A stretch of 64,000 nucleotides of DNA from Gammaproteobacteria bacterium (GTDB lineage Bacteria; Pseudomonadota; Gammaproteobacteria; SURF-13). The notes beneath the pieces are model-generated. The model worked only from the letters and a program-made list of their open reading frames with translations, was not told the origin of the DNA and did not search any database. Shown in pieces: positions 14,951-43,944 of the stretch. A program made the translations under genes and the position numbers. Position 1 is the first letter of the stretch. The number at the start of each line of letters is the position of its first letter. The stretch lies in NCBI GenBank assembly GCA_016195665.1, contig JACPZD010000028.1:1-64000 (forward strand). The letters run 5' to 3'.

Positions 14951-15751
14951 GTGTCCATAGACTTCATTTCACGCCGATTGCTGCGCAACGCCGGCACGCA
15001 TGGGCCGCTCGCGCTGATGTACCATTCGGTCGTTCCCGGCAACGGTGTACCTGATTGGAGATGGGCCGTTTCCTGCCGCTGGTTTGTCGCCCAGCTTGAT
15101 TTGCTGCGTGACGAAGGTTGGACAACGGTCTGTGTGCGTGACCTGGTCCATCCGGCCGGTTTGCCGAATCGCACGGTCGTATTGACTTTCGATGACGGCT
15201 ACGCGGACAACTACCCTGCCTTTGAAGCGCTCGCACAGCGCGGCATGCGCGCGACCTGGTTTATCGTGAGCCGCGACGTTGGCGGCATGTCAGGTTGGGA
15301 CGACCCCGGTGTGGCGCCTCAACGCATGCTAAGCGGCGAGCAGCTACGGGCGATGGCGGCAGCCGGCATGGAAATCGGTGCGCACAGTCGCAGTCACGCC
15401 CGGCTAACCGAGCTGGACGACACCGGCCTCGCGGATGAAGTAGGGCGTTCGAAAACAGAGCTGGCCGGAATAGTGGGCGAGTCCGTGCAAAGTTTTGCCT
15501 ATCCTTATGGTAAATACGATGACCGCGCGGTGGATGCGGTGCGCCGCGCCGGGTACACCGGCGCGTGCATCACCCGCCCCGGCTGGGCGCTGCGCGATAA
15601 CGATCCGTTGCGCATTCGCCGCGTCAGTATTTTCGCTCAAGACGATCTCGCCGCACTCGCGCGTAAATTGGCGTTTGCCGACAATGATGTGAGCTGGCGG
15701 CACATGCTGCGTTATGCATCAGGCCGGCTTGTTACTCGGCTACGGCCCTGA
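14951..15751 (+). CDS. Polysaccharide deacetylase (NodB-like)
   Basis: A 266-residue protein with a carbohydrate esterase family 4 core. 'ALMYHSVVPG' near the N-terminus is followed by motif 1 'LTFDDGYADNYPAF', motif 2 'EIGAHSRSHARL' (the metal-binding histidines) and 'FAYPYGKYDDRAVDAVRRAGY'. It would remove acetyl groups from an amino-sugar polymer. The GTG start has a GGAT-like ribosome site; no signal peptide is seen, so it may act on the cytoplasmic face or be membrane-associated. A following GT2 gene starts 22 bases after the stop. Confidence 0.88.
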   Translation: MSIDFISRRLLRNAGTHGPLALMYHSVVPGNGVPDWRWAVSCRWFVAQLDLLRDEGWTTVCVRDLVHPAGLPNRTVVLTFDDGYADNYPAFEALAQRGMRATWFIVSRDVGGMSGWDDPGVAPQRMLSGEQLRAMAAAGMEIGAHSRSHARLTELDDTGLADEVGRSKTELAGIVGESVQSFAYPYGKYDDRAVDAVRRAGYTGACITRPGWALRDNDPLRIRRVSIFAQDDLAALARKLAFADNDVSWRHMLRYASGRLVTRLRP

Positions 15752-15773
15752 GGGCGCAGCGCAGCGCTTTATA

Positions 15774-16727
15774 ATGAGTCCTCACACCGCTTCCATTATC
15801 ATCCCGTGTTTTAACGGCGAGCGCTTCCTGGCCGAGGCGATTGATGCAGCGCTCGCGCAAACATATCCCCGGTGCGAAGTCATCGTCGTTGACGATGGCT
15901 CCAGCGACGGCTCGGCGGCCATCATGCAAAAGTACGCAGGGCGTATCCGTGTCGTGCAGCAAGCCAACGCGGGTCTGCCCGCAGCGCGCAATGCTGGCAT
16001 CCGGGTCAGCACCGGCGGTTATCTCGCCTTCCTCGATGCGGATGATTACTGGCGGCAGGATTTCATCGAGAAGATGGTGCAGGCGCTGGAAACGAGCGGC
16101 GCGGCTATTGCTTATTGCGGCTGGCAGAATGTGGGCCTACCGGACGGACGAGGCAAACCTTTTATACCGCCCGATTATGAGCATGAACAGGGTAAGCTCG
16201 AGCGGTTGGTCGGCGGTGTGCGCTGGCCGGTGCATGCGGCGCTGGTGCGCCGTCATGCCGTCGAAGCCGTTGGGGGATTCGACCCGAAATGGACAAGCTG
16301 TGAGGACTTCGCATTTTGGATACGCGCGGCCACCCGCCACGCCCTGGTTAGGGTCCCCGAAGTGCTGGCGTTTTATCGTCACCACGGCCGCCAGATGACG
16401 AAGAACCGGGCGCTCATTGCCCACAACCATTGGAGGGTGCAGAGGGAATTTCTGCGCGAGCATCCCGAGGTCGAGAAACGGTTGGGCAGGCGGCGCATTC
16501 GGGAGCTGACTCATGGCGAAATGCTGCGCAAGGGTTATGAATCTTATTGGCAGGGGGATCTGGAAACGGCGCGCGCCATCTTCCGCACCGTAATGAAAAC
16601 CGGCTACGGGGCGCCCGGCGATTGGAGATACATGCTGCCCGCGCTCCTTCCCCTGCCTTTGCACCAGGCGTTGATCCGTCTGATGGATCGGAACAAAAAA
16701 GAAAAGCCCCTTTCAGAAAATGACTGA
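15774..16727 (+). CDS. GT2 family glycosyltransferase
   Basis: A 317-residue GT2 protein starting at the ATG of 'MSPHTASIIIPCFNGERFL'; an in-frame upstream extension overlaps the deacetylase gene and lacks family features. Motifs: 'CEVIVVDDGSSDGS', 'AGLPAARNAGI' and 'YLAFLDADDYW' (D-x-D-D metal site), then 'FDPKWTSCEDFAFWIRAA', a typical acceptor ED motif. The C-terminal region is basic. It is coupled to the next glycosyltransferase gene with two bases between stop and start. Confidence 0.9.
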   Translation: MSPHTASIIIPCFNGERFLAEAIDAALAQTYPRCEVIVVDDGSSDGSAAIMQKYAGRIRVVQQANAGLPAARNAGIRVSTGGYLAFLDADDYWRQDFIEKMVQALETSGAAIAYCGWQNVGLPDGRGKPFIPPDYEHEQGKLERLVGGVRWPVHAALVRRHAVEAVGGFDPKWTSCEDFAFWIRAATRHALVRVPEVLAFYRHHGRQMTKNRALIAHNHWRVQREFLREHPEVEKRLGRRRIRELTHGEMLRKGYESYWQGDLETARAIFRTVMKTGYGAPGDWRYMLPALLPLPLHQALIRLMDRNKKEKPLSEND

Positions 16728-16729
16728 CC

Positions 16730-17653
16730 ATGCTGACCTTCGCCTTCTGCACCTACAACCGCGCCGACCGTCTGGAAAACCTGGTGGCCGCCATGCGCGC
16801 CCAGGTTTGCCGGGTCCCATTTGAGATCCTGGCCGTCAACAACAACAGCAAGGACAACACCCTCGCCATTCTGGGGAAACTGGCCGCACAGCCCGGCGCC
16901 CCATTGCGCTTCGTCACCGAGAGCGCCCAAGGTATCGTCCCGGCCCGCAACCGGGCCATCGAGGAGGCGCTGAAGAGCGACATTCTGGTGTTTATTGACG
17001 ACGATGAATTGCCACAGGCCGGTTTGCTGAACGCGGCTTCTGACGCCATTGTCAACGAGGGCGCCCAATGCGCCGGCGGACGTGTAGAAGTCGACTTCAC
17101 CGCGCACAGTCGCCCCGCTTGGCTGGATGACGAGATTGCCGGTTTCCTCGGCGAACTCGATTACGGATCTGAACCGTTCTGGATCAAGGATGGCGATACG
17201 CCGGTCTGGAGCGGCAATATTGCCTACGACATGCGCCTGTTCCGCGACGACCCAACGCTGAGGTTCGACCACCGCTACAACCGGGAAGGTGCGGACGTGG
17301 GCGGCGGCGAGGACGCCATCATGTTCCGCACGTTGCAGTCGCGAGGCACGAAGATTCGCTATCGCCCGGATATGGTCGTACGGCATTACGTCGAATCCCG
17401 GCGGCTGAAACGCAGCTACTTCCTCACGCTGCACTACCGGTCGGGATTGCGCCATGGCCGCCACGAATTAGAGACCTATTCTCGCACCATGCTGGGCGTG
17501 CCGCCTTTCCTCGTCGCGCAGTGCCTGCGCCAGGGAGTACGGGCAACGGGCATGCTGCTAACGAGCCGTCCCGGTGCTTTGCGACAAGCTATGAATGCCG
17601 CCAATTCTCTGGGTCGTCTGGTGGGTTACGCTCAGCGTCCCAAGGCATACTAA
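16730..17653 (+). CDS. GT2 family glycosyltransferase
   Basis: A 307-residue GT2 protein: 'LTFAFCTYNRADRLENLV', 'EILAVNNNSKDNT', 'GIVPARNRAIEEAL', 'DILVFIDDDELP' (DDD metal motif) and later 'GGGEDAIMFRTLQ'. The same 'GGGED' and 'HYV--RRLKRSYFL' patterns recur in the GT2 half of the fusion at 17942. The two are related and probably act in succession. The stop codon is the first part of a long perfect hairpin, so transcription probably ends here. Confidence 0.9.
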   Translation: MLTFAFCTYNRADRLENLVAAMRAQVCRVPFEILAVNNNSKDNTLAILGKLAAQPGAPLRFVTESAQGIVPARNRAIEEALKSDILVFIDDDELPQAGLLNAASDAIVNEGAQCAGGRVEVDFTAHSRPAWLDDEIAGFLGELDYGSEPFWIKDGDTPVWSGNIAYDMRLFRDDPTLRFDHRYNREGADVGGGEDAIMFRTLQSRGTKIRYRPDMVVRHYVESRRLKRSYFLTLHYRSGLRHGRHELETYSRTMLGVPPFLVAQCLRQGVRATGMLLTSRPGALRQAMNAANSLGRLVGYAQRPKAY

Positions 17654-17941: not shown

Positions 17942-20900
17942 ATGATTCCGGAAAAACCCATGGACACCGCCCTCACCGTCCTGATCTGCACCCATAACCG
18001 CGCCGATTTGCTGGAGCATGTGCTGGCATCGCTGAACGCAGCGAAGCGGCCGAACATGCCGGTGCAGATTCTGGTGGCAGCGAATGCCTGCACCGACGAC
18101 ACGGTGGCGCACATGCATGCATATCAAGCGCAGCAGGCTGACAAGGGCTGGCTGCCGCTACGTATCATTGAAGTCCCCACACCCGGCAAGTCGTACGCGC
18201 TGAATCGCGCCATCCCGGAAATCGACACTGAACTTACCGCCTTTGTCGATGACGACCATAGGGTTGATGAAAACTACCTGGTCGCCATCGAACAGGCTGC
18301 GCTGACCTGGCCCGGCGCCGGATTGTATTGCGGCCGTATCCTGCCCGACTGGGATGGCGCAGAACCCGCCTGGGTGCATGACGAGGGGCCGTATCGCATT
18401 TACCCCCTGCCCGTGCCGCGCTACGACCAGGAGGATCAACCCAAAACCATCACGGCGGAAGAAGGCCCCATCCCCGGCGGCGGCAATCTGGTGTTGCGCC
18501 GCCGCGTTTTCGAACTGGCCGGATCGTTCTCCACTGAGCTGGGCCCCCACGGCCATGATCTGGGCGGCGGCGAGGACAGCGAATACGTGCTGCGCGCCCT
18601 GACACGCGGCGAATGTTGCCAGTACACACCGGACATGGTGCAGCATCACTATGTCGATGCCGCACGACTGAAGCTTTCGTATCTGCTCAGGAAAAGCTAT
18701 CAGCGCACCCGCTCCACCTCACGCATCCGCGGCAACGGCCGAGTGCCGCTGTATATGTGGCGCAAGCTTGCAGAGTATGGTTTTCACAGTATCTTCAGCC
18801 TGTCATGGGCAAAAAGCCGCTTCTACTGGGTTCGCACAGCCGCGGCATTAGGAGAAGTACAGGGTCGTCGCGAATCCGGCAATCGGCGCAAGAGGCTCGA
18901 CCTCCCGCCGGACCGCGGCATGCTGGGGGTGGGGGCGCTAGCGCTACTGACTGCGGCTTGCGGCTTAGTAGCATGGTTCGCGAGCGGCGAGGATCGTTGG
19001 GCCGGATTACTACCCGCGCTTGGAGTCGCTGCAGTTGGAACAGTCTCCCTGCTGGCGAAATCGCTGTCGGACTTCTCGCAGACCGGGCCACGCATCCGTA
19101 AAGAAATTCTCACGCACTATCGGCGTTATACTCTGTTTGCCCTCGCCCGCCTAAGTGCATGGGCGTTTGCGCTGACGCTGTTTGCAGGGGGCGGCGGCGT
19201 GCTCATTTATTACGCGCTGAATGTGAGCTTAGGGGGAAGCTGGTCGGCATGGCTGGCCGCACTGGCCACGGTCATGGGAATACTCGGCGCCAGTGCGCTG
19301 CAACTTATCCGCAAGCTCCGCTTTAACCCGGGACTGCTGGTCGCTTCCACGCACTACCGCATGAGCCGGTTCTACCGGCTGTGGCAGTGGGTCACGCCTG
19401 CCCGCATCGGCGGGTTGCAGGGTGCGCTCATCTTCGTTGCCGGACTGCTGGTCGCCGCCGCCTCGTGGCGGCTGGTGAAGCAGAACCAGACGGCGGAACT
19501 CATGGCGCTAGGGTCAGCGGTGCTATTCTACGCCGGGGTCATCGTGTGGGCCGCATGGTCGCCGCAAGCGCGTGCGCCGCGCCACGCCAGGATCCGACAG
19601 GAAAATACGCCGCCCAATATCCTGCTCATCGGCTCGGACACGCTACGCGCCGATCGTCTGGGTGCGCACGGCTATCGCCGCGCGCTCACGCCCAATATCG
19701 ATACACTCGCCGCGCAGGGTGCGCTGTTTTCAAATTGTTATGTTCCTTGCGCCCGCACGTCACCCAGCCTGATTTCTCTGTTAACCGGCACCTGGCCGCA
19801 CACTCATGATATCCGCGACAATTTTGTCGCCGATACCGAAACCCGTCTCAAGGTCGCCACCCTGCCGCAACTGTTGAAGCCGCTGGGCTATCGCACCGCG
19901 GCGCTATCCGACTGGTGTGGTGCGGACATGGGCAAGTTCTCATTCGGCTTCGACTACACCGACCTGCCGGAAGACCAGTGGAATCTGAAATACCTGATCC
20001 GGCAAGGCCCGAAGGATCTGCGCCTGTTTGTTTCGCTGTTTACCCATAACCGGCTTGGGCGGCTGCTGTTGCCCGAACTGTACTATCTGGGCGGAGTGCC
20101 GCTCACCACCCAGATGGGATGCCGCGCGCGCCGGCTGATCTCGCGCCTGGCTGCCAACCCGCAGCCGTTTTTCCTGAACGTGTTCTACTCCACCACGCAT
20201 CCGCCTTTTGCCTCCGAATGGCCGTGGTATACGCGCTTTGCCGATCCCGCCTATGCCGGAGAATCAAAATTTGCCATGGCCAAGCTCTCCGATCCCTTCG
20301 ACATCATCCGCCGCCAGGGCGCACCCCTGGAAGAATTCGACCTCGACCAGATCATCGACCTGTATGACGGCTGTGTGGCGCAATTCGACGATGAGGTCGG
20401 TCGCATGCTGAAACATATTGAAGCTTGCGGGCTCGCGGACAACACCATCGTCGTCGTCTATTCCGACCACGGCATGGAGTTTTTCGAGCATGATACCTGG
20501 GGGCAAGGCAATTCCGCCGTCGGCGACTTCAGCCCGCGCATCCCGCTGGTGATCCGCGATCCCCGCAAGCCGGCTTGCGGCACAATCAAAAGCGTGGTAC
20601 GCAGTATTGACTTGGCTCCCACGCTGCTGGAATTGGCCGGTTCAACACCGGCAGCCCACATGGAGGGAATCTCCCTCGTTGCCTGCCTGACCCATCATGA
20701 ACACTGCCCGCAACTCGACGCTTACAACGAAACCGGGGTCTGGGTCACCGACATCCCAGGTCAGCCAGAGAAGCATCTGCGATATCCTGACCTGTTGGAA
20801 CTGCTGGAGGTGCCGGACATAGCCGGCGGCGCCCTTGCAATCAAACCGGAATATGCAGCACACATCATAGCAGCCAAGGATCGCATGATCCGCAGCGGGC

Positions 20901-21079
20901 GCTGGAAGCTCACCTACCAGCCGCTCACTAACAGCCACATCCTGCAACTGTTCGACGTTGAGACTGACCCTATATGCCGGCATAATGTGATTGAGCAGTA
21001 TCCGGAAATAGGCGCTGCGTTGTGGCACAAGCTGTCTGAATGGATCAACCACGGGTCTGACGCACAACCCAAGCGCTGA
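17942..21079 (+). CDS. GT2 glycosyltransferase fused to a membrane region and a sulfatase-like domain
   Basis: A 1045-residue protein in three parts. Residues 1 to about 310 are a GT2 domain ('LTVLICTHNRADLLEHV', 'FVDDDHRVDENY', 'LGGGEDSEYVLRAL'). Residues about 325-535 are a membrane region with several hydrophobic segments ('GALALLTAACGLVAWFA', 'AALATVMGILGASAL', 'ALIFVAGLLVAAASW'). Residues from about 550 are a sulfatase/alkaline-phosphatase-fold domain: 'NILLIGSDTLRADRLG' (D566), 'CARTSPSLISLLTG' and 'VVVYSDHGMEFFEHDTWG' (D842, H843). The nucleophile position of the C/S-x-P-S-R sulfatase motif is Thr606 (T-S-P-S-L), and the arginine is Leu. Formylglycine formation is therefore not expected; phospho-transfer or phosphohydrolysis is more likely than sulfate removal. 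The domain order would put glycan synthesis on one side of the membrane and substituent transfer on the other. It follows a repeat element and may start a new transcript. Confidence 0.85.
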   Translation: MIPEKPMDTALTVLICTHNRADLLEHVLASLNAAKRPNMPVQILVAANACTDDTVAHMHAYQAQQADKGWLPLRIIEVPTPGKSYALNRAIPEIDTELTAFVDDDHRVDENYLVAIEQAALTWPGAGLYCGRILPDWDGAEPAWVHDEGPYRIYPLPVPRYDQEDQPKTITAEEGPIPGGGNLVLRRRVFELAGSFSTELGPHGHDLGGGEDSEYVLRALTRGECCQYTPDMVQHHYVDAARLKLSYLLRKSYQRTRSTSRIRGNGRVPLYMWRKLAEYGFHSIFSLSWAKSRFYWVRTAAALGEVQGRRESGNRRKRLDLPPDRGMLGVGALALLTAACGLVAWFASGEDRWAGLLPALGVAAVGTVSLLAKSLSDFSQTGPRIRKEILTHYRRYTLFALARLSAWAFALTLFAGGGGVLIYYALNVSLGGSWSAWLAALATVMGILGASALQLIRKLRFNPGLLVASTHYRMSRFYRLWQWVTPARIGGLQGALIFVAGLLVAAASWRLVKQNQTAELMALGSAVLFYAGVIVWAAWSPQARAPRHARIRQENTPPNILLIGSDTLRADRLGAHGYRRALTPNIDTLAAQGALFSNCYVPCARTSPSLISLLTGTWPHTHDIRDNFVADTETRLKVATLPQLLKPLGYRTAALSDWCGADMGKFSFGFDYTDLPEDQWNLKYLIRQGPKDLRLFVSLFTHNRLGRLLLPELYYLGGVPLTTQMGCRARRLISRLAANPQPFFLNVFYSTTHPPFASEWPWYTRFADPAYAGESKFAMAKLSDPFDIIRRQGAPLEEFDLDQIIDLYDGCVAQFDDEVGRMLKHIEACGLADNTIVVVYSDHGMEFFEHDTWGQGNSAVGDFSPRIPLVIRDPRKPACGTIKSVVRSIDLAPTLLELAGSTPAAHMEGISLVACLTHHEHCPQLDAYNETGVWVTDIPGQPEKHLRYPDLLELLEVPDIAGGALAIKPEYAAHIIAAKDRMIRSGRWKLTYQPLTNSHILQLFDVETDPICRHNVIEQYPEIGAALWHKLSEWINHGSDAQPKR

Positions 21080-24083: not shown

Positions 24084-24941
24084 CTAATCCGGGCAGAAAC
24101 GGCAGTAGGGGTTGGTCGGGGTGCCGATGACGGGCGGTTTGCTATCGCCGGCGCTGCTCGCTTCACCACCACTCTGTTTGTCTTTAGATGTGGCGGTGTC
24201 ATCTGGCCCAGCTTCCTGTTCAGGCCCCGATTCGGTCGCAGCATCGTGGGGAGTCTGACTTACTCCGGACCGGGTATCTTGCCGCCCGTCCGCAGCATCC
24301 GGCGCTGCCGGGTTGCCTGGTGATGCAATACTTTCAGCAGCCGGGAGCGGTTCCTTGCCGCCCAACTCCAGATATTTCTTCTGCAACCCTTTGCTTTTCG
24401 GAGCGTGACTGAGACCGTTGGTGACGACCTCCAGAGCCTTGGCCTTATTGCCTCCCTTGATGTAAATCGCTGCCAGGTTCAAATAGGCCTGCACCTGTTT
24501 GGGATCGTGTTCGATGGCTTTGACAAAATCGACGGCGGCGGCGCCATCTTGCTTCATCAATTTATGTGCGATACCGCGATTGAGATAGATTTCTCCCGCC
24601 AATGGAAAATCGTCGGGCATATCCTTAGCCACGTAATCGATCTCCGGTACGGCACGGCTCAGATAGTAACCCCTTTTCGGGTCGTTCCACAGGCGCTGAT
24701 ACCGGTTGATGTAATTAAGGCCGCTACAGTAGTGATGGATGCCCCGGAATTTCGGACCCAGCCGATTCAACCACATCTGGAATTCAGGCAGATGACCATT
24801 ATCGGTGGCCCTGACCCTGCAGTATTCCGGCAGCCGCGCCATTTCCGCTTGAGTCGGTGCAAAGGGCAGCAACTCCGCCCCTGTAGCCTGTAATGTGAAT
24901 AAAAGCAACAGGGTCCCGAATCCTCGCATTCTTCGCACCAT
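24084..24941 (-). CDS. Secreted tetratricopeptide-repeat protein
   Basis: The ATG at 24941 has a strong GGAG site and lies two bases after the stop of the GT4 gene; the 21-residue upstream extension is inside that gene. The protein of 285 residues begins with a signal peptide ('GTLLLLFTLQATGA'). It has TPR-like helices in the middle ('YLNRGIAHKLMKQDGAAAVDFVKAIEHDPKQVQAYLNLAAIYIKGG'), a low-complexity Pro/Ala/Asp/Ser linker, and the end 'NPYCRFCPD' with a CxxC. It may be a periplasmic scaffold for polysaccharide or surface assembly. The function is inferred only from repeat and location. Confidence 0.75.
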   Translation of the reverse strand: MVRRMRGFGTLLLLFTLQATGAELLPFAPTQAEMARLPEYCRVRATDNGHLPEFQMWLNRLGPKFRGIHHYCSGLNYINRYQRLWNDPKRGYYLSRAVPEIDYVAKDMPDDFPLAGEIYLNRGIAHKLMKQDGAAAVDFVKAIEHDPKQVQAYLNLAAIYIKGGNKAKALEVVTNGLSHAPKSKGLQKKYLELGGKEPLPAAESIASPGNPAAPDAADGRQDTRSGVSQTPHDAATESGPEQEAGPDDTATSKDKQSGGEASSAGDSKPPVIGTPTNPYCRFCPD

Positions 24942-24943
24942 GC

Positions 24944-26098
24944 TCACTCCTTTCCAGCCGCTGGCACACCCAGTCCACTGGTCTTGGCCGCGACCTGTTC
25001 CCAAGCAAATGCTCCCAGCGCCCTATGATAGCCGTTTTTACCCATACTGTATCCCACTCCGCCCAGCAGGCGCACAAAGGCATCCACGATGGCCCCCAAG
25101 CATTCACCGTTCACTCTCAATCCGGTTTCCCCATCCACCACCGCAGCACCCGTCCCGCCTGCGTTTCCAGCCAATACGGGCCTGCTACAAGCGGCCGCCT
25201 CAATAAACACCATGCCAAAACCTTCCGTGTCGCCATTGATCTCGCGGTTGGGCATGGCGAACACGTCGCAGGCATTGTACCAACGAGGCAGATCCTCGGG
25301 GCTGACATGGCCCAGAAGGTGGACTTGATTGGCCACTCCCAATTCTCGAGCAAGACTGATCAGATAATCCCGGTCTTCACCCATGCCGATCAGCGCATAT
25401 CGAACATTGATCCCCTGACGCAGCAGTTCCGGCAGGCTGCGGACGACCATATCGAAACCCTTGCGCCGAGACAGACGTCCCACTGACAAAATGAGTTTTT
25501 CACCCGGCCGGAGACCGATGCCGGCCTTAAGATCATCGCAAGGGAGACCCGGGCGGAAGCGCTCCACATCCACACCCGGATAGATCAGGGTGATGCATTC
25601 GGGCCGGACATCCATTTTCACCAGTTCGTCGCGGGTGAACTCGCTGTTGGCGATTACCCGGTCGGCGTGACGCAAGGCGAAGCGCATCGCCCTGTACTTG
25701 CCCCCCCGGCCCCAGGTGGTGAGCTCCTCGCCGTGGGCATAGATCACCACCGGCAGCCGTATGAGCCGCGCCACCGCCCAGGCCACCAGGCCTTCCGGCA
25801 GGGCGCGGCCGGCATGCACCACGTCGAAATCGTGGCGCAGCGCGAGCCGCAGCCCGGTGACGAAGAGCTTGGCGTACATGGCTATTGACTCGGGTTTGAG
25901 CCACCAGCGGCGACGGAGTTTCACCCGATGCACGCTGTTGGGGTGGAGCGCGTCAACTTCCGCCGCACCCGGCACGTCGGCGGTGACGATGTGGATATCC
26001 TTGCCGCCCAGACGCCGGTAGACCTCGGCGAACCATACCGCGGTACCGCCCTTGGTGGGCAGAAACAGTTCGGTGAAAACCAGATAACGCAGCGCCAT
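24944..26098 (-). CDS. GT4 family glycosyltransferase
   Basis: A 384-residue GT-B protein: 'YLVFTELFLPTKGGTAVWFAE' at the N-terminus, 'DRVIANSEFTRDEL', 'LILSVGRLSRRKGFDMVV', 'VHLLGHVSPEDLPRWYNACDVFAMPN' and the E-x7-E region 'EGFGMVFIEAAACSRPVLAG'. It sits in a run of minus-strand genes, nine bases from the following glycosyltransferase gene. Likely a retaining transferase that adds a sugar to the growing repeat unit. Confidence 0.9.
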   Translation of the reverse strand: MALRYLVFTELFLPTKGGTAVWFAEVYRRLGGKDIHIVTADVPGAAEVDALHPNSVHRVKLRRRWWLKPESIAMYAKLFVTGLRLALRHDFDVVHAGRALPEGLVAWAVARLIRLPVVIYAHGEELTTWGRGGKYRAMRFALRHADRVIANSEFTRDELVKMDVRPECITLIYPGVDVERFRPGLPCDDLKAGIGLRPGEKLILSVGRLSRRKGFDMVVRSLPELLRQGINVRYALIGMGEDRDYLISLARELGVANQVHLLGHVSPEDLPRWYNACDVFAMPNREINGDTEGFGMVFIEAAACSRPVLAGNAGGTGAAVVDGETGLRVNGECLGAIVDAFVRLLGGVGYSMGKNGYHRALGAFAWEQVAAKTSGLGVPAAGKE

Positions 26099-26106
26099 CC
26101 GTAAGC

Positions 26107-27051
26107 CTATTTTTTGTCGTCCAGGCCGCGCGCCACCGACAGCAACTCACGCAGTGTGGATAGTCCCGGTTGAGCGAGGAACGATGGCAGGACCGCTCCG
26201 ACAGCCTCGGTCCGCCGCCCCTGGCGCAGCAGCGCCACCGCCAGGTTGTAGCGGGCGCTGCGCAGGCCGGCGCGGAAACCTCGTTGCACGGCAGGCAACG
26301 CCGCGGCAAGCTGAGGTTTCAGCGCCGTAAGCGCCTCCACCGTGAGCCGCTGGGCGCGCAGCGGGTCGCGCCGGGTGGCGCTGCCGGGGTAGATGTAATA
26401 AACCGCCATGGGCCGGAGTACGACACCGATGCGACGGCTGGCGGCTGTGAGCCGAATCAGGAAATTGACGTCCTCGCACACCGCGCGCCCCGGCGGATAG
26501 CCGCCCAGTTCCAGGAAAGTCCGGCGCGGCACGCTCAGGGTATGGGTGTCGCCGAAATGGTCGGCGACGAAGGCTTCAATCTCCGCCGCTTGATCCATCA
26601 CCACCCGCTCCGCCCCCGCCGCTCGCGCCAGCAACATCCGCCCCGCCGCCGTGTGGGCGAGCGAGGTCTTGATCAGCCGTCCGTCCGGCTCGCGGTATTC
26701 CTGCTCGCCGGTGAGAAAATCCAGTGTTGGATCTTCGGCGATCCACTGGGCATGCCACTCGATGCGGCCGGGATAGTATATGTCGTCGGCGTCCAGGAAC
26801 GCCAACCAGTCGCCCGTGGCCAGCCGGGCGCCGGCATTGCGTGCCGCCGACACACCGGCGTTGGGCTGGTGCAGGTAGCGCAGTCGCTCCCCGTAGTGCG
26901 CCACCACTTGCGCGGTGGCGTCGGTGGAGCCGTCGTTCACCACGATCAATTCATGGACCGGATGGCTTTGGGCCAACACTGAGTCAATGGCGCGGGCCAA
27001 GGTGGCCGCCCCATTGTAGACCGCGATGATGACCGAGAAGCGCGGTGTCAT
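26107..27051 (-). CDS. GT2 family glycosyltransferase
   Basis: A 314-residue GT2 enzyme: 'RFSVIIAVYNGAATLARAI', 'HELIVVNDGSTDATAQVV', 'AGVSAARNAGARLATGDWLA', 'FLDADDIYYPGRIEW' (metal site), 'AVCEDVNFLIRL' (acceptor ED). The C-terminal 60 residues are basic and helical. It is nine bases upstream of the GT4 gene and clearly co-transcribed. A hairpin-rich stretch precedes it. Confidence 0.9.
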   Translation of the reverse strand: MTPRFSVIIAVYNGAATLARAIDSVLAQSHPVHELIVVNDGSTDATAQVVAHYGERLRYLHQPNAGVSAARNAGARLATGDWLAFLDADDIYYPGRIEWHAQWIAEDPTLDFLTGEQEYREPDGRLIKTSLAHTAAGRMLLARAAGAERVVMDQAAEIEAFVADHFGDTHTLSVPRRTFLELGGYPPGRAVCEDVNFLIRLTAASRRIGVVLRPMAVYYIYPGSATRRDPLRAQRLTVEALTALKPQLAAALPAVQRGFRAGLRSARYNLAVALLRQGRRTEAVGAVLPSFLAQPGLSTLRELLSVARGLDDKK

Positions 27052-27070
27052 GCCCCCTACCTATAAATCT

Positions 27071-27118
27071 GCGGCCGAAGGCCGCTCTGACTCTCCTTCT
27101 CCCGCTTGCGGGAGAAGG
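27071..27118. terminator. Pair of GC-rich hairpins between two minus-strand genes
   Basis: GCGGCC-GAA-GGCCGC (27071-27085) is followed by CCTTCTCCCGC-TT-GCGGGAGAAGG (27095-27118). The second is the kind of 'CTCCCGC..GCGGGAG' palindrome scattered in many bacterial genomes. No T-run follows, so it may reduce rather than stop read-through, or simply be an interspersed repeat. Confidence 0.55.
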
Positions 27119-27154
27119 TGGCCCGAAGGGCCGGATGAGGGAGAGACCGCTGGC

Positions 27155-28420
27155 TCATGGACACAATTCGCGCCCATGGAGTCGGGCGGTCGCTCCCACG
27201 AGCCGGCCGGCCAGCCGCAGGGGCAGCGCCAGGCCGGTGACGCGCGCCAATTTCCAGAATCGCGGCAGGATGCGGAGGCGCGCCAACCAGGCCCGCAGCC
27301 GTGCCTTGAATCCCGCTTCGATGAGATCCGGTGCGCGTCGCGTCATGGCCTCGGCCAATTCCACCGGGGCCAGGAAACGGATAGAGGGGTACGCCGCCAG
27401 TGCCGAATCCAGCGCCCTTCCCAATTCGGCCAGTGCCTCGGCGGCGCCGGCGCGCACGAAGTTGAAGCGATGCGTCTCCACCAGGGTCGGCCGGCCCAAC
27501 TCCGTGTTGTGCGCCAGCGCCGCCGTCACCCGCTCCGCCTTGTGGTCCAGGGCCGGTTCGAAATAGGCATCGCGCACCAGGTATAGCATGCCGGCGGAAC
27601 CTCGTTCGCCGTTGCGAAGATCACGGCCGGCCCGGTCAGGCCGGCCGTCCGCGCCGCGCCCCTCATAACGCCGGCCCGGTGTCACCACCACCCGCACCCC
27701 GTGGGCCGCCCAGGCCCGTTCGACTGTTTCGCCCCAGACAAAAGCGGGCGGCACCGCCACCACCGGCGGAATGCCGAAAATATCCTTGAACAACGCCGTT
27801 TCTTCCGCCACCGCCCGGGCAATGTCCACATCCCGCAGCGGCACGGACGGCAACCGGCTGGCATCGGTCCAGCGGCTCTGTAGATGGGAAGGCAGCGTTT
27901 CGGTTTCGGGCAGAGTGCCGGTGGCCAGCCACTGCGCTACGGCGGGATCGGTATGCGCTGCGTTCATCAACACGGCTGGGCTATAATGTTCCAAGCCGTG
28001 CAACTGCACCGCGAACACCCCGTCGGCGATTCCCTGCGCCATCGCCCGCCGTATCGGTTCGAAACGCGCATCGGTCAGAGGCAGACGGTGATACCGCTCC
28101 ATCCGGGCGGCGCGGATGGCCGCCGTATCCGGCAGCGCCAGGATCACCCCCAAGGTCATCAATGCCGGCCGTCCCCGGCTGTCTCGATGTCGCAGCAATA
28201 CCTGCCGCAGACGCTCCAATGCCTGGGCGTGAAGGGCCGGCCCCGGCCCCCAGTCGTCGCTCTCAATCACCAGAACAGGGAATTTCAGCACCGGTTCGCG
28301 CCACGCCGCCGTGATCACTTTTCGGAACGACCAAACAAGCAACAGGACACACAGAGTCCAGGCAAGAAGCGGATAAAGGATCCAGGGCAGCACGTCAGGA
28401 ATCGGAATATGCAGCGGCAA
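27155..28420 (-). CDS. Membrane-anchored polysaccharide deacetylase-like protein
   Basis: A 421-residue protein with one N-terminal membrane segment ('ILYPLLAWTLCVLLLVW', about residues 14-30). The body then reads like a deacetylase-fold domain: 'FPVLVIESDDWGPGP' (metal-binding DD), 'VFAVQLHGLEHYSPAVL' (H-x-L-x-H) and 'IPPVVAVPPAFVWG'. The basic C-terminal part may be a second membrane contact. The only usable start is TTG at 28420 or GTG at 28393; both keep the membrane segment. The assignment is moderate, because the spacing of the motifs differs from standard NodB proteins. Confidence 0.65.
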   Translation of the reverse strand: MPLHIPIPDVLPWILYPLLAWTLCVLLLVWSFRKVITAAWREPVLKFPVLVIESDDWGPGPALHAQALERLRQVLLRHRDSRGRPALMTLGVILALPDTAAIRAARMERYHRLPLTDARFEPIRRAMAQGIADGVFAVQLHGLEHYSPAVLMNAAHTDPAVAQWLATGTLPETETLPSHLQSRWTDASRLPSVPLRDVDIARAVAEETALFKDIFGIPPVVAVPPAFVWGETVERAWAAHGVRVVVTPGRRYEGRGADGRPDRAGRDLRNGERGSAGMLYLVRDAYFEPALDHKAERVTAALAHNTELGRPTLVETHRFNFVRAGAAEALAELGRALDSALAAYPSIRFLAPVELAEAMTRRAPDLIEAGFKARLRAWLARLRILPRFWKLARVTGLALPLRLAGRLVGATARLHGRELCP

Positions 28421-28429
28421 GAAACTGTT

Positions 28430-29419
28430 TCAAAGAGGGTATCCCATCCGATGGGCGACAGCCAGCACCGACGGAAGCGCGCGTTCTATCTTGTCCAGGT
28501 TGCGTCCGTCCTTCCACTTGTTCAGGCGGATAGCGGAAAAGGCGTTGTATGGAGTATCCAGCACATTTGCACAATGCTGTTGCAACGCCGGGGTGAAGCG
28601 CAGGCCGGTGGCCTCGAACAGGGGACGGAAGCCCGCCACCGGATCGCGTACCAGATCCTCGTAACACACCTCGCTCCACTGGGAAGACGGAATAATGCGC
28701 TTGGCGTCCAGGATAGCCTGATTGATGGCGCGGTACTGGAACGCGCAGACCTCTTCTACCGGTGCGCGCAGGTAATCGCGCCAGCCCTCAGCCAGAAAAA
28801 AGCACCATCGGGTGTAACGGCCGCCGTCGACTTCCACCCGCTCGGGCAGATGGTCGGACCAGGTGGCGAATTCCTCCGGCTTACCCCAGCCCTCGATCAG
28901 GGAATTCAGGTTATCGCCGGGGCTGCGCTTGATGAAGACGAAATGGGCATCCGGGAATAGGGCGTGCAGGTATGGCACACACAGGCCGTTCTGATTGTTC
29001 TTGTCGACGAAGCGGCGTTTGCCGGTCCAAGCATAGAAATAGCGCGACACGCAGTTGCGGTCATGGTCGCTGGCCTGGGCCGCATCCAGGGCGTGGGTAT
29101 CCCAACGCTTTTCCGACAGCGGATGCAAGTCCATCCAGAAATCGTGAGTTTCCCGTTGCAGGGAGCCGATTTCTCGCGACTCGGAGAAGGTCTTATAGAC
29201 CACCGTGGTTCCGGCGCGGCTGCACCCCACGATAAAAACCGGCTTTTGCATGGATGGTTGAAATATGTCCCAGCGCAGGCCACGGACACCTTGTTGAAAC
29301 CGCTTTTGGCAGTAATGCAGGGTTTTTCCAATTTTTGTCCAGAGCTCACTCACAACAACCTCGTTATTTCCAGCCGGGCTATTAATATCCGGGTCAAACA
29401 TATCATTATAAGGTACCAT
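28430..29419 (-). CDS. Sulfotransferase family protein
   Basis: A 329-residue protein. The PAPS 5'-phosphosulfate loop is 'VFIVGCSRAGTTVVYKTF' (about residues 61-78), and 'HFVFIKRSPGDNLNSLI' is in the place of the 3'-phosphate motif. A region with 'YEDLVRDPVAGFRPLFEATGL' is typical of the C-terminal half. It is divergent from the sulfotransferase at 23122, so the two may sulfate different sites. The first Met at 29419 and the Met at residue 7 are both possible starts. The gene is divergent from the AsnB-like gene at 29481. Confidence 0.82.
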   Translation of the reverse strand: MVPYNDMFDPDINSPAGNNEVVVSELWTKIGKTLHYCQKRFQQGVRGLRWDIFQPSMQKPVFIVGCSRAGTTVVYKTFSESREIGSLQRETHDFWMDLHPLSEKRWDTHALDAAQASDHDRNCVSRYFYAWTGKRRFVDKNNQNGLCVPYLHALFPDAHFVFIKRSPGDNLNSLIEGWGKPEEFATWSDHLPERVEVDGGRYTRWCFFLAEGWRDYLRAPVEEVCAFQYRAINQAILDAKRIIPSSQWSEVCYEDLVRDPVAGFRPLFEATGLRFTPALQQHCANVLDTPYNAFSAIRLNKWKDGRNLDKIERALPSVLAVAHRMGYPL

Positions 29420-29480
29420 TTTGCTAAATTTGGCCTGACTACACTATAAAACCATTGAAAATTGCTGATTTGAACCGGCC

Positions 29481-31334
29481 ATGAGCGGAATATGCGGATG
29501 GATGGATGCCTCGACCGGGCAGGACGAGGCGCGTAGCGTTCTGGAACGGATGGTTTCCGCAACCGGGGCTGCCACTGATCCAGGAGGGCAAGAGGCGGTC
29601 TTGCCAGGCTGTGCGCTTGCGGTTTACCGGGGCCGCGTACCGGTGGGCCTGCATCGGAATGGCGCGGTGCTTGCAGCCGTGCAGGGCCATGTCCAATGGA
29701 CATCGAACGACCTGGCCACGCTGGCGGCAAGTCAGGGGATGGGGGCGGCGGCGGCTGCCGCCTATGCGCGCCACGGCGTGGAGTGCCTTCAGGAAATGCG
29801 CGGGCCGTTTGCCCTGGCGATTGCGGACGCGCGGACCCAGACCACCCTGCTGGCCGTGGATCGCATGGGCATCCGCACCTTGTGTTACGCCACATCGGGC
29901 GAACGGCTAGTGTTCGGTAACACGGCGGATTGCGTGATTGCCCATCCGGCGGTTCAGTCCAAGCTGAGCGAGCAGGCCATTTTTAATTATCTTTACTGCC
30001 ACATGGTGCCCAGCCCGGGCGCCATCTATGAGGGGGTGGAAAAGCTGCTGCCCGGCGAGCGCCTCGTCTGGCGCCGGGGGGGGGTGGAAAAGAAATTTTA
30101 CTGGCGGCTCGAATATCACGACCATGCCGCTGCTTCAGTGTCCGCGCTGGAACAGCGTTTCCACGGCGTGCTGCGCGAAAGCATCGGCCGGGCGGCGGAC
30201 GGGTTGGATGGCGGGCGGGTCGGCGCGTTTCTGAGCGGGGGCACGGACAGCTCCACGGTGGCCGGCATCTTGACCGAAGTGTGCGGCCGGCCGGTGGACA
30301 CCTATTCGATCGGCTTCGCAGCGGAAGGATTTGACGAGATGGGCTACGCGCGCATCGCCGCCCGCCATTTCGGAACCCGCGCGCATGAATATTACGTGAC
30401 GCCGCAGGACGTGGTTGATGCGGTGCCGCTGATCGCAAGCAGCTACGACGAACCCTTCGGCAACGACTCTGCCGTGCCAACCTATTACTGCGCAAAGCTG
30501 GCTAAAGAAGACGGTGTGAACATCATGCTCGCGGGTGACGGCGGTGACGAAATCTTCGGCGGCAACGCGCGTTATGTCCAGCAAAAGGTGTTCGAATACT
30601 ACGGCCTGATTCCCAAGCCGTTACGCAGCGGGCTGATAGAGCCGGCGCTTTCCGCCATACCGGGCGGCGCAGCGGTTCTTCCGGTGCGCAAGCTACGCAG
30701 CTATATCAAGCAGGCGAATATTCCATTGCCGGACCGGCTGGAATCGTACAATTTCCTGCATCGCATGCCGCTGTCCGAGATTTTCGAGCCGGATTTTTTA
30801 GTTCGCCTGGACCCGGAGCATCCGTTGCAAATCATCCGGGAGGCCTATAATAGAACGGCCTCCGCTTCCATCATCAACCGCATGCTGCACCTGGACCTCA
30901 AGCAGACTCTTGCCGACAACGACTTGCGCAAGGTTTCGCGCATGTGCGAGAGGGCGGGCGTCGAAGTACGATACCCGCTCATCGACGAGGCGCTGGTGCA
31001 GTTCGCCGCGGAATTACCGCCATCCCTCAAGGTGAAGGGATTGAAGCTGCGCTATTTCTTCAAGCACGCGCTGCGCGATTTCTTGCCACGGGAAATCATT
31101 GCCAAATCGAAACACGGTTTCGGCCTGCCGTTCGGTCTATGGGTCAACACCCATGCGCCGCTTGCGGATATGGCGCAAGCCAGCCTGGAGGCCTTCCAGC
31201 GCCGCGGTTACATGAAGCGCAGCTATATCGACCGGCTGCTTGCGGAACACCGCAGCACTCACGCGACCTACTTCGGGAAAATGATCTGGGCAATCATGAT
31301 GCTGGAGCAATGGCTGGCAGCGAGAGGGTTATAA
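29481..31334 (+). CDS. AsnB-like amidotransferase with altered glutaminase site
   Basis: A 617-residue protein of the asparagine synthase family. The N-terminal Ntn-hydrolase domain (1-200) starts 'MSGICGWMD': the nucleophile expected at Cys2 is Ser, and the usual 'NGEIYN' substrate loop is replaced by 'QGHVQWTS'. The synthetase domain is intact, with the PPi loop 'FLSGGTDSSTVAG' (252-257 = SGGTDS) and 'LAGDGGDEIFGGNARY'. It could therefore use free ammonia or another amine, or form a different bond with AMP activation. It is alone on the plus strand between two minus-strand blocks and 25 bases from the end of the MBL gene. The complete AsnB-type gene of the locus lies at 40027. Confidence 0.85.
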   Translation: MSGICGWMDASTGQDEARSVLERMVSATGAATDPGGQEAVLPGCALAVYRGRVPVGLHRNGAVLAAVQGHVQWTSNDLATLAASQGMGAAAAAAYARHGVECLQEMRGPFALAIADARTQTTLLAVDRMGIRTLCYATSGERLVFGNTADCVIAHPAVQSKLSEQAIFNYLYCHMVPSPGAIYEGVEKLLPGERLVWRRGGVEKKFYWRLEYHDHAAASVSALEQRFHGVLRESIGRAADGLDGGRVGAFLSGGTDSSTVAGILTEVCGRPVDTYSIGFAAEGFDEMGYARIAARHFGTRAHEYYVTPQDVVDAVPLIASSYDEPFGNDSAVPTYYCAKLAKEDGVNIMLAGDGGDEIFGGNARYVQQKVFEYYGLIPKPLRSGLIEPALSAIPGGAAVLPVRKLRSYIKQANIPLPDRLESYNFLHRMPLSEIFEPDFLVRLDPEHPLQIIREAYNRTASASIINRMLHLDLKQTLADNDLRKVSRMCERAGVEVRYPLIDEALVQFAAELPPSLKVKGLKLRYFFKHALRDFLPREIIAKSKHGFGLPFGLWVNTHAPLADMAQASLEAFQRRGYMKRSYIDRLLAEHRSTHATYFGKMIWAIMMLEQWLAARGL

Positions 31335-40026: not shown

Positions 40027-41952
40027 TCAGACGGCGGCCTTCAGTGCGGGAGCGGCCTGCGCGCCCATGACGTTGCGCAGGAATGATTCGAACATCAGCA
40101 ACGACCAGAGCGGCGCACCGTAATCACGCAACCCCGACTGGTGCTGCTCAACCATCTGGTGCAGAAAGTTCGGATTAAACAGCCCCGTGTCCGCCAGCGT
40201 CGCGCCGAGTACACTGTCGCGCACCTTTTGCCTCAAAGGACCACGAAACCAGCTTGCCAAAGGTACGGAAAAGCCCATTTTCGTCCGGTACAGAATCTCG
40301 TTTGGCAAATAAGGCTCCAGCGATTTTTTGAGCAGATATTTTCCCTCCCCGCCGCGCAGCTTGAGTGCAGGAGATAAGCTAGCCAGCCATTCCATCAACG
40401 GGTGGTCCAGCAAGGGCTCGCGCACCTCGAGGGCGTGCGCCATGCTGGCTCGGTCCACCTTGGTCAGGATATCGCCGACCAGGTAGGTCTTCATATCAAG
40501 ATATTGCACGAAAGACAGCGGCTCATCCGTGGGCGCGCGCGCGGCGTGGCTGCGCAAGACTTCAAGGGCGGTGTAATTTTGCAGGTCGGCGCGAAACTTA
40601 TCGCTGAATAATTTGCTCCGCATGTCATCGCTCATGACGGAAACACTGTGAAAATAGCCCGCCGCCGAATCGCGCGCCAACGCCTCAAGGGTTGACTTGG
40701 CGCGGAACAGCTTCGGCGCCCAGTCCGCCTTCGGATACAGCCTGCCCATCGCGCCGAATAGCGGCCGGCGCAAGGCCAACGGCAGCAAACTCCGCAGCCG
40801 TTCTTCATAAAGGTGATAGCGGTAGCGCCGGTAACCGGCAAAATTTTCGTCGCCGCCGTCGCCCGACAGCGCCACCGTCACCGTTTTGCGCGCCAGTTCG
40901 CAGACGCGGTAAGTCGGGATGGCGGAACTGTCTGCATAGGGTTCGTCGTACAGCATGGCCAGCCGATCCACCAGATCGAAGTCGTCTTTATCCACCTGTT
41001 CGACACGATGGCGGGTGCGGTAACGATCCGCCACCTGTTGCGCATAAGCAGATTCATTGAACGCCGGGTCGCCAAAGGAGATGGAACAGGTATTGACCGG
41101 TTCCGTCGAGAGGCCCGCCATCATCGCCACCACCGCGCTCGAGTCCACACCCCCGGAAAGAAAGGCGCCCAACGGGACTTCCGAGATCAAACGGATTTTA
41201 ACGGCTTCGCGCAATCTGACTATCAGCTCTTCGCGCGCGTCTTGTTCCGGGATAGCCGGGCCGGACTTGAAAGATATATCCCAATATTGTTTGGGCTGCG
41301 CCCAGGGTTGTCCTCGTTGCAGGGTGAGTGTATGGCCCGGTGAAAGTTTCAGTGCGTGTTTGAATATCGTGCGCGGCTCAGGAACATAGCCGTATGCGAA
41401 ATAGTCCTCAATGGCAAAGGGATCCAGCTCGCGCTGCAAGCCGGGATGAACCAGCAGGGATTTGAGTTCCGACCCAAACAGGAAGGTACCGTCGGGAAGC
41501 GCCGCATAGTACAGCGGCTTCACGCCCAGGCGGTCGCGCGCGAGAAAAAGGATGTGCCGGTTACGATCCCATAGACCGAAGGCGAACATCCCGCGAAAGC
41601 GCTGCACACAGGCCTCGCCCCACTGTTCCCAGGCATGGACGATGACTTCGGTATCGCAGTGGGTGCGAAAGGTGTGACCGAGTTTCTTCAATTCCTCCAT
41701 CAAGTCCGGGAAGTTATAGATCTCCCCGTTGAATACCACCACCACGCTGCCGTCTTCATTGAACAGGGGTTGCTGTCCGCTGGAGAGATCAATGATCGAG
41801 AGCCGCCGGTGCCCTAGTCCCAGGCCAGGCTCGAAATGCACACCGCCTTCGTCTGGCCCACGATGAAACTGAGACTGATTCATCCGCTCCAGCAGCGGGC
41901 GATCCATCTCGCGCTGCGCATGTGTATCAAATAGACCAACTATGCCGCACAT
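40027..41952 (-). CDS. Exosortase A system amidotransferase (AsnB-type, TIGR03108-like)
   Basis: A 641-residue glutamine-hydrolysing asparagine-synthase-like protein. The nucleophile Cys2 ('MCGIVGLFD'), 'FNGEIYNFPDLMEEL' and 'RFRGMFAFGLWD' are all in place. The synthetase domain has 'FLSGGVDSSAVVAMMAG' and 'VALSGDGGDENFAGYRRY'. It is the standard amidotransferase of the XrtA locus and probably forms an amide on a uronic acid or an amino-sugar bond of the exopolysaccharide. It is separated from the upstream part of the locus by a HigBA-type toxin-antitoxin pair. Confidence 0.93.
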   Translation of the reverse strand: MCGIVGLFDTHAQREMDRPLLERMNQSQFHRGPDEGGVHFEPGLGLGHRRLSIIDLSSGQQPLFNEDGSVVVVFNGEIYNFPDLMEELKKLGHTFRTHCDTEVIVHAWEQWGEACVQRFRGMFAFGLWDRNRHILFLARDRLGVKPLYYAALPDGTFLFGSELKSLLVHPGLQRELDPFAIEDYFAYGYVPEPRTIFKHALKLSPGHTLTLQRGQPWAQPKQYWDISFKSGPAIPEQDAREELIVRLREAVKIRLISEVPLGAFLSGGVDSSAVVAMMAGLSTEPVNTCSISFGDPAFNESAYAQQVADRYRTRHRVEQVDKDDFDLVDRLAMLYDEPYADSSAIPTYRVCELARKTVTVALSGDGGDENFAGYRRYRYHLYEERLRSLLPLALRRPLFGAMGRLYPKADWAPKLFRAKSTLEALARDSAAGYFHSVSVMSDDMRSKLFSDKFRADLQNYTALEVLRSHAARAPTDEPLSFVQYLDMKTYLVGDILTKVDRASMAHALEVREPLLDHPLMEWLASLSPALKLRGGEGKYLLKKSLEPYLPNEILYRTKMGFSVPLASWFRGPLRQKVRDSVLGATLADTGLFNPNFLHQMVEQHQSGLRDYGAPLWSLLMFESFLRNVMGAQAAPALKAAV

Positions 41953-42049
41953 CGTGCTTCCCTTCTGTTCAACTGCGTTGGACTAGGCACGAAACCCAAC
42001 ATGGAGCTTCATATGTCACTAGTTGCCGCCAGGGCACTGACCTTTAATG

Positions 42050-42340
42050 CTAAGCGGCTTTTTTGACAGTTAGCTTGACGCGCATTCCAGCCTTGGCGAG
42101 TATATTAACCAAAGCGTCTAAACTGAACTTGTCGATCTTTCCCTTGAGCAGCAGATTAAGGCGGGGCTGGGTAATACCCAGCGTGTGCGCCGCTTTCTCC
42201 TGGGTCACCCCTTTGGCCAGATCGCGCACCTTCGCCATCAGCTCCGAGCGCAGCAAAAGGTTTTGCGCTTCTTCATCTGGAAAACCAAGGTCACGGAAGA
42301 CGTTTCCGCTACCCTCTGTGATTTTCAATTTTTTTTTCAT
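42050..42340 (-). CDS. XRE-family antitoxin, HigA-like
   Basis: A 96-residue protein with a helix-turn-helix in the middle: 'VTQEKAAHTLGITQPRLNLLLKGKIDKFSLDAL' spans residues about 45-77. The basic start 'MKKKLKITEGSGNVFRDLGF' is common in antitoxins of this branch. Its start overlaps the toxin stop (42337-42340). It would repress the pair's promoter and neutralise the toxin. It is downstream of the toxin gene, the toxin-first order typical of higBA. Confidence 0.87.
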   Translation of the reverse strand: MKKKLKITEGSGNVFRDLGFPDEEAQNLLLRSELMAKVRDLAKGVTQEKAAHTLGITQPRLNLLLKGKIDKFSLDALVNILAKAGMRVKLTVKKAA

Positions 42341-42666
42341 GACGATTTCCTCTGATTCACCAATTCACGGTAGCGCTGGGTTGCCAAGTCAATATCGCGC
42401 TTCGCCGTTTGTTGCGTCTTCTTGGCAAAGGCGTGGAGTATATAGACTGCTTCAGCAAACTTTGCCACGTAAATGACCCTGTACTGATTTTCGGCACGAA
42501 TGCGAACTTCTTTCACGCCAAGCCCGATGCTGGGCATAGACTTCCAGTCTGACGGCTCCCTGCCTTTTTGTATCTCGTTGAGTTCGAAGCCTGTCTCGCG
42601 CCGGGCCTCGTCTGAGAATTCACGGACAGCTTGTAGGCTATCGCCAATCCACCTTAACGGCTTCAT
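42337..42666 (-). CDS. HigB/Gp49-like toxin
   Basis: A 109-residue protein of the phage Gp49-like / RelE superfamily: 'MKPLRWIGDSLQAVREFSDEARRETGFEL', then 'SMPSIGLGVKEVRIRAENQYRVIYVAKFAEAVYILHAFAKKTQQT' seen in pieces. The 'VHEIRI..YRV.Y.....V..LHAF.KK..' pattern is the standard core. It most likely cuts mRNA at the ribosome. The pair lies inside the exosortase locus, between the amidotransferase gene and a glycosyltransferase gene, and probably inserted there; it has its own 78-base upstream gap. Confidence 0.87.
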   Translation of the reverse strand: MKPLRWIGDSLQAVREFSDEARRETGFELNEIQKGREPSDWKSMPSIGLGVKEVRIRAENQYRVIYVAKFAEAVYILHAFAKKTQQTAKRDIDLATQRYRELVNQRKSS

Positions 42667-42744
42667 CCGTTATTATTCCAGTTCTGATATAAAATGCAAG
42701 AGGGCTACTTCGCTTTCATGGGTTTGACCAGGTCCGCACTACTC

Positions 42745-43944
42745 TTAAGCCCAGCCGCCCCTATCATCGTCGCTCCTTCTGAAACCGCCAACCCGTCCAT
42801 GATCTCCGCCCTGCAGCAGCCGGTCATAGACATTCATATAATTCTGCGCCATGGCCTCGATACTAAAAAGGCGCGCGGCCCACTCGCGCGCGGCAAGACC
42901 CTGCCTTCTGCGTTCTTCAGGATTCCCCAAATAGTAGCTCAACGCCTCCGCCATCGCGTGAGGATCACCCGGCGGGACCAGTTGTCCGGTACGCCCTGCC
43001 TCGACCAGCTCGGGGTTCCCCCCCACTCGCGTGGCCACCACGGGCAGGCCGCTCGCCATGGCCTCGAGGATGGTGTTGGAGATGCCTTCTCCGAGCGAAG
43101 GCGATACAAACACATCCAAGGCCCGCATGATCTCCGGCACGTCCGCCCGCTCACCAGGCAGCCACGCCAGGTCTGCGGCGTTTGCGGCCTGCAATTGCCC
43201 TAGACAAGACGCGCGGCTGGGGCCGTCACCCGCGATGACCAGGCGCAGCCGCCCTCTTGCCGCCGGCTCCCTCTCCAAAATCTGAAGAAATGCGCGCACC
43301 AGCGTCGGGTAATCCTTCACCTCGACCATCCGGCCCACGCTGCCGATCACGATTTCCCCGTCGCGCAGAAATCCGGGCGGGCCGATGGGGCTGCGTTCAC
43401 CCTCGCGCGGATGAAAGCGCGCGCTGTCCACCCCATTGTAGATCTGGGCAATACGCTCCGGCGGCACACCCACGGTCTGCACCAGCCAGCCCTGGAGGTC
43501 CCGGCTCAGGGCGATGTAGCGGTGCACCAGCGGGCGCGCCAGCTTGCGCAGCAGGTTGTACTTGCGGCTGCGGCCATGCAGATCGAATACGTCCCGCCCG
43601 TGTTCGCCGTGAATTCTGGCGCTCACACCCGCCAGGCCCGCCACGAACTGACCTTCCAGGGCGGACAGGTTGCGCGTGTGCACGATGTCCGGCCGCAATT
43701 GCCGCAACAACCGCCACAGCCGCCAGTAAAGCCCCAGGTCGTGCCCCGGCTGCTTGTCCAGGGCGTAAAACCGCACATCTTCGCGTTCAATGCGCTTGCG
43801 AAAATCGGTATACCCATCCAGACACACGACCGCGTGCCGGTAGCGGTCTGCGGGCATGCGGTTGATCAGGTTCACCAAGCCATTTTCCAGACCGCCCACG
43901 TCGAAGTGGTGGATCACATGCGTGATAAGCGGCGCTTGTCTCAT
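42745..43944 (-). CDS. Exosortase A-associated GT4 glycosyltransferase (TIGR03088-like)
   Basis: Begins at the ATG of 'MRQAPLITHVIHHFDVGG' with a GAGG ribosome site; a TTG 11 codons earlier is less likely. The protein of 399 residues has 'DIVHTRNLSALEGQFVAGL', 'RIHGEHGRDVFDLHG', 'EIVIGSVGRMVEVKDYPTLV' and 'ALDVFVSPSLGEGISNTILEAMASG', the profile of the sugar transferase that follows xrtA in typical loci. It is 48 bases downstream of xrtA and in the same direction. The C-terminal tail is rich in Gly, Arg and Asp. Confidence 0.92.
   Translation of the reverse strand: MRQAPLITHVIHHFDVGGLENGLVNLINRMPADRYRHAVVCLDGYTDFRKRIEREDVRFYALDKQPGHDLGLYWRLWRLLRQLRPDIVHTRNLSALEGQFVAGLAGVSARIHGEHGRDVFDLHGRSRKYNLLRKLARPLVHRYIALSRDLQGWLVQTVGVPPERIAQIYNGVDSARFHPREGERSPIGPPGFLRDGEIVIGSVGRMVEVKDYPTLVRAFLQILEREPAARGRLRLVIAGDGPSRASCLGQLQAANAADLAWLPGERADVPEIMRALDVFVSPSLGEGISNTILEAMASGLPVVATRVGGNPELVEAGRTGQLVPPGDPHAMAEALSYYLGNPEERRRQGLAAREWAARLFSIEAMAQNYMNVYDRLLQGGDHGRVGGFRRSDDDRGGWA

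Follow-up and report, generated by a model that had tools for sequence, protein, structure and literature searches.

The gene at 17942-21079 of the window (the whole 64,000-nucleotide stretch analysed here) encodes a GT2 glycosyltransferase domain and an alkaline-phosphatase-superfamily domain in one protein. The label 'sulfatase', under which such genes are listed, conceals what is, judged from sequence, a bifunctional protein of exopolysaccharide assembly, a glycosyltransferase joined to a predicted Thr-type alkaline-phosphatase-superfamily enzyme. The gene belongs to XrtA/PEP-CTERM exopolysaccharide loci. New here is the repeated swapping of three GT2 classes onto the same membrane-catalytic module, at a junction just before the first membrane helix (TM1).

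Organization of the fusion protein

The gene is one ATG-started frame with no internal stops; M7 (17960) is an alternative start, and the alignments of most relatives begin at residue 7-11. Pfam places Glycos_transf_2 at residues 12-165 (2.5e-12) and Sulfatase at 558-900 (1.1e-44), with Phosphodiest as an additional match of the C-terminal domain. Its parts are as follows.

17942..21079 (+), whole fusion gene (1045 aa), running from the GT2 domain through six membrane helices to the alkaline-phosphatase-superfamily (sulfatase-like) domain
17966..18877 (+), GT2 glycosyltransferase domain, residues 9-312 (Pfam PF00535 above cut-off; stand-alone homologues in loci L012, L014, L018, L103)
18248..18256 (+), D103-D104-D105, DxD-type nucleotide-sugar/metal motif of GT2 (invariant in alignment A1)
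18572..18577 (+), E211-D212, the GT2-type ED motif and probable catalytic base (invariant in alignment A1)
18914..18982 (+), TM1, residues 325-347, extra helix of fused forms, mostly absent in stand-alone forms (AlphaFold2, hydropathy)
18992..19555 (+), membrane helices A-E, residues 351-538 (AlphaFold2 models)
19328..19390 (+), a pair of short helices, 463-469 and 474-483, probably interfacial, within the strongly positive loop C-D
19607..21055 (+), alkaline-phosphatase-superfamily (sulfatase-like) domain, residues 556-1038 (Pfam PF00884, Foldseek)
19637..19639 (+), D566, metal-ligand position, aligned with a Glu of EptA (invariant in 91/91; hhalign)
19757..19759 (+), T606, predicted nucleophile (invariant in 91/91; aligned with the Thr region of EptA)
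20198..20200 (+), H753, active-site His position in T-T-H-P-P-F (invariant in 91/91)
20465..20470 (+), D842-H843, metal ligands (invariant in 91/91)

Both GT2 motifs, DDD and ED, are kept in all aligned fused sequences. The closest NCBIfam model to the N-terminal half is the GT2 exopolysaccharide transferase HpsE; its score of 96.9 bits lies far under the curated cut-off of 300, and the alkaline-phosphatase domain falls outside that model. The genome carrying the window (2.38 Mb, 41 contigs) has a single copy of the fusion. The sole other match there, the GT2 gene next to it, shares 35% identity with the N-terminal half.

Scanning 84,980 species genomes for homologues yielded 80 loci, found in Thiobacillus, Candidatus Nitrotoga, Aromatoleum, Thauera, Sulfuriferula and others; the fused relatives are mostly from Betaproteobacteria. 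After de-duplication, 74 proteins with a GT2-bearing N-terminal extension stood against 12 stand-alone ones. Where the module stands alone, a GT2 gene often lies directly upstream: in L012 the two overlap by 4 bp, and in L018 and L103 they almost touch. The initial annotation had placed GT2 and the sulfatase-like domain on one polypeptide, and the 74 fused relatives from separate assemblies bear this out. Since the same fusion recurs in dozens of independent assemblies, an erroneous joining of two genes during assembly is ruled out.

The module is rare: in a phylum-wide sample searched with the module profile, the window's own genome was the only match, and plasmid and phage collections returned distant sulfatases only. 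The fusion is missing from all five other genomes sampled in the window's order (G001-G005), and the fusions of Thiobacillus and Nitrotoga are approximately 73-78% identical to that of the window. Given this distribution, horizontal transfer of the locus is possible.

Exchange of the glycosyltransferase half

The N-terminal halves fall into three GT classes: F1a (n=57, including the window), F1b (n=12) and F2 (n=5). Members of F1b are 55-86% identical to one another and approximately 41% identical to F1a; those of F2 share 67-89% identity and could not be aligned with F1a under the threshold applied. A tree built from the C-terminal module scatters these classes, with 12 changes among fused forms. 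The exact number is uncertain, as this is a fast LG+G4 tree whose branches are long beyond the Thiobacillus group. Starred branches force at least 7 changes for F1b and at least 4 for F2. AU tests on a Thiobacillus-centred subset rejected a single clade both for F2 (p 0.00014) and for F1b (p 4e-39). The exchange can be seen directly in L071 and L072, whose modules are 89% identical while their GT2 classes are unrelated. Identity climbs at residues ~310-330, just before TM1, which marks the swap junction. Recurrent GT2 exchange onto one and the same membrane-catalytic module is thus well supported by sequence comparison.

Downstream of the fusion lies a GT4 gene (21973-23073, +) with homologues beside 5/5 F2 fusions, beside some F1a and beside no F1b fusions. 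This suggests that the class of the GT half and the adjacent transferase vary together.

An XrtA/PEP-CTERM exopolysaccharide locus

The region at 2-31 kb of the window contains ABC export genes, sugar-modifying enzymes and several glycosyltransferases. Three blocks surround the fusion.

14951..17653 (+), conserved neighbours on the upstream side: a polysaccharide deacetylase gene and two for GT2 enzymes
24084..31334 (.), block conserved on the downstream side: TPR protein, GT4, GT2, deacetylase-like, unknown, asparagine-synthase-like
40027..55689 (-), XrtA/PEP-CTERM exopolysaccharide core (NCBIfam matches above curated cut-offs)

Most loci share the deacetylase and GT2 genes upstream as well as the downstream block; the latter accompanies the fusion in ~40-63 of 80, many loci ending short of it. 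The core encodes the XrtA amidotransferase, exosortase XrtA (43993-45591, above cut-off), GT4, a FemAB-like protein, deacetylase, an outer-membrane protein and a chain-length determinant. In a class-wide sample of 369 genomes, XrtA scored above cut-off in 19/20 module carriers versus 53/349 others (Fisher p 6.6e-14, genome kinship ignored).

Several neighbours deserve mention in their own right. At 2200-7363 (+), a Wzt-like ABC transporter ATPase, a NeuD-type acetyltransferase and a DesI-like aminotransferase place ABC-type glycan export beside the XrtA locus; identity to the counterparts in a Sulfurimicrobium MAG (L055) is 89-90% for the acetyltransferase and the aminotransferase. There are two asparagine-synthase-like amidotransferases, at 29481-31334 and 40027-41952, of which the second alone reaches the cut-off for XrtA amidotransferase. 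A sulfotransferase-family gene (PF00685; 23122-24015, +) sits two genes downstream of the fusion. Only 3/80 loci have a homologue, and we rejected a general sulfation theme on that ground.

The family has very likely been met before under another name. In two studies (PMC4784049, PMC3684757), a gene listed as 'sulfatase [wbbL]' appears in the psc1-type exopolysaccharide cluster of Thauera MZ1T (tmz1t_3253) and of Rubrivivax gelatinosus (RGS1_10427). The order given there (deacetylase, GT2, hypothetical, GT2, sulfatase) is that of the locus L100 of Thauera aminoaromatica S2, in which the gene is a fusion. The wbbL tag suggests the GT2 half, and tmz1t_3253 and RGS1_10427 very likely belong to the same family as the window fusion. 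The same sources report that the cluster of this layout drives flocculation and biofilm formation in both bacteria (PMC4784049, PMC3684757), and that Thauera flocculation requires the deacetylase tmz1t_3249, which lies four genes away from tmz1t_3253 (PMC4784049). In the portions available, tmz1t_3253 and RGS1_10427 are listed, with no function, nucleophile, topology or fusion given and no insertion recovered (PMC4784049, PMC3684757). The MZ1T polysaccharide may bear ester-linked non-sugar groups; the paper notes only 'possible nonsugar substitutes' and no phosphate substituent.

Membrane topology

In the full-length AlphaFold2 model (pLDDT 85), six helices separate the two domains (325-347, 351-376, 394-430, 436-461, 486-513 and 517-538), in agreement with the several membrane segments first proposed. 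The module modelled alone (346-1045, pLDDT 91) shows five long membrane helices, TM1 being the sixth of the full-length model. The hydropathy peak of TM1 is present in nearly all fused forms and missing from the stand-alone ones except L013; in this comparison, L074 and L099 are truncated contigs.

GT2 enzymes must be cytoplasmic, where they reach nucleotide sugars. With an even number of helices between the two domains, the alkaline-phosphatase domain would then be cytoplasmic as well. Loop charges point the same way: fused forms have 14.5 Lys+Arg per protein in the catalytic-side loops versus 0.7 on the other side, in the same direction in 74/74, these loops being longer (~81 versus 11 residues) and also denser in Lys+Arg (~0.18 versus 0.07). 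Counted identically, the controls EptA and YejM/LapC have 6 on the catalytic side against 10 and 12, respectively, on the other. A small hand-made Viterbi predictor, calibrated on E. coli proteins (EptA and LapC right, OpgB wrong), gave six helices with both termini inside for the window protein. It placed the C-terminal domain inside in 71/74 fused forms, and split the stand-alone ones (7/12 C-in). The presence of TM1 in fused but mostly not in stand-alone forms is also what this orientation would require if the stand-alone N-terminus lies outside. From the AlphaFold model, charge counts and this predictor, both domains are predicted to face the cytoplasm.

The initial annotation had the glycan made inside and decorated outside by the same polypeptide. 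Such an arrangement, with a periplasmic alkaline-phosphatase domain acting after flipping like EptA, LtaS and OpgB, has precedent: the best-known five-helix Thr-type relatives have their catalytic domain outside (PMC7576196). The stand-alone forms found here are five-helix proteins too. For the fusion, however, the six helices and a charge bias inverted relative to EptA and LapC contradict decoration outside, and we consider it unlikely, though a serious contender.

Catalytic residues of the C-terminal domain

D566, C603, T606, D842 and H843 lie where the initial annotation had put them, and the motif reads C603-A-R-T606-S-P-S-L610. T606, R605, D566, H753, D842 and H843 are invariant in 91/91 aligned relatives. 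C603 is Cys in 82/91 and Leu/Ile in the other 9; the position of L610 is hydrophobic (L/M/I) in 91/91, and Q855 occupies the Lys position after the D-H pair. In formylglycine sulfatases one expects a nucleophilic Cys, the motif Arg and a Lys after the D-H pair. Here the sulfatase fold is present (PF00884 1.1e-44; Foldseek E ~1e-19, probability 1.00), but the Cys/Ser position of C/S-x-P-x-R is taken by T606 and the Arg of C-x-P-x-R by L610. We therefore discard a formylglycine sulfatase using C603, which is unconserved and three residues upstream of the motif position; the conservation of T606 upholds the Thr nucleophile first suggested.

The domain matches sulfatases and phosphonate monoester hydrolases (PF00884) best, in sequence as in fold; the window protein differs from these in being membrane-bound and fused to GT2. 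It resembles EptA and LtaS in having membrane helices followed by an alkaline-phosphatase-superfamily domain with a Thr nucleophile and D/E, D and H ligands (PMC7576196), here D566, T606, D842 and H843. In contrast to the window protein, EptA and LtaS have no glycosyltransferase domain and have five helices with the catalytic domain outside, and the sequence relation is weak. Against E. coli EptA, hhalign matched D566 to the Glu ligand, T606 to the Thr region and D842-H843 to the D-H pair with modest scores (E 2e-4, probability 47); the match to YejM/LapC was E 4.8e-7 (probability 92.5), and that to OpgB weaker. EptA and LtaS are absent among the best 50 Foldseek matches, and curated family models were missed by far: LtaS 21 versus 970 bits, YejM 20 versus 825 and CptA 15 versus 900. 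By these tests the domain is outside the EptA/LtaS families. The early analogy with phosphotransferases thus holds for the nucleophile, C603 finding no support, but not for the fold, which is closest to sulfatases and phosphonate monoester hydrolases. Going by its conserved residues, the domain probably works like a Thr-type phospho-enzyme.

Members of Phosphodiest use a Thr nucleophile as well, and the domain could be a hydrolase, either a phosphodiesterase or a phosphatase, trimming a substituent or recycling a lipid or nucleotide left over from the glycosyltransferase reaction. The Pfam match to Phosphodiest and the closest solved folds, which are hydrolases and include phosphonate monoester hydrolases, speak for this; its anchoring in the membrane and the D/T/D/H set are instead reminiscent of membrane-bound transferases, and the constant presence of a hydrolase beside a synthase would need a reason, so we hold it to be rather unlikely. 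The domain might instead be catalytically inactive, or a regulatory module that senses lipids, as has been proposed for YejM/LapC, a protein of this fold whose NCBIfam and RefSeq names refer to the regulation of lipopolysaccharide synthesis. This is very improbable with every catalytic position invariant in 91/91 relatives, unlike YejM, where Arg451 replaces the His (PMC7576196).

A model for glycan decoration

We tentatively propose, at somewhat less than even confidence, a bifunctional inner-membrane enzyme of an XrtA/PEP-CTERM-type cluster that adds a sugar to a lipid-linked glycan and phospho-modifies it at the cytoplasmic face. The N-terminal GT2 domain would add a nucleotide-sugar-derived sugar to a lipid-linked repeat unit on that face, and the six-helix part would hold the C-terminal domain on the same side. 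T606, with the metal site of D566, D842 and H843, would then move a phospho-substituent onto the same glycan before export; candidate donor groups include phosphoethanolamine or phosphoglycerol from a membrane lipid. Phosphotransfer to lipid-linked units, the donor and the order of action are what we infer here. A bolder version is possible but doubtful: a cytoplasm-facing Thr-type phosphotransferase, inverted relative to EptA and LtaS and acting before flipping, would serve as the constant module for swapped glycosyltransferase cassettes, with serotype-like variation of the polysaccharide.

Known membrane-bound Thr-type phosphotransferases act outside, on glycans or lipids that are already across the membrane. 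A cytoplasm-facing version joined to a glycosyltransferase would, if true, make decoration possible during assembly. With one half kept constant and the transferase half repeatedly exchanged, these genes, so far listed simply as 'sulfatase', offer a natural experiment on slime diversification in environmental, floc-forming bacteria.
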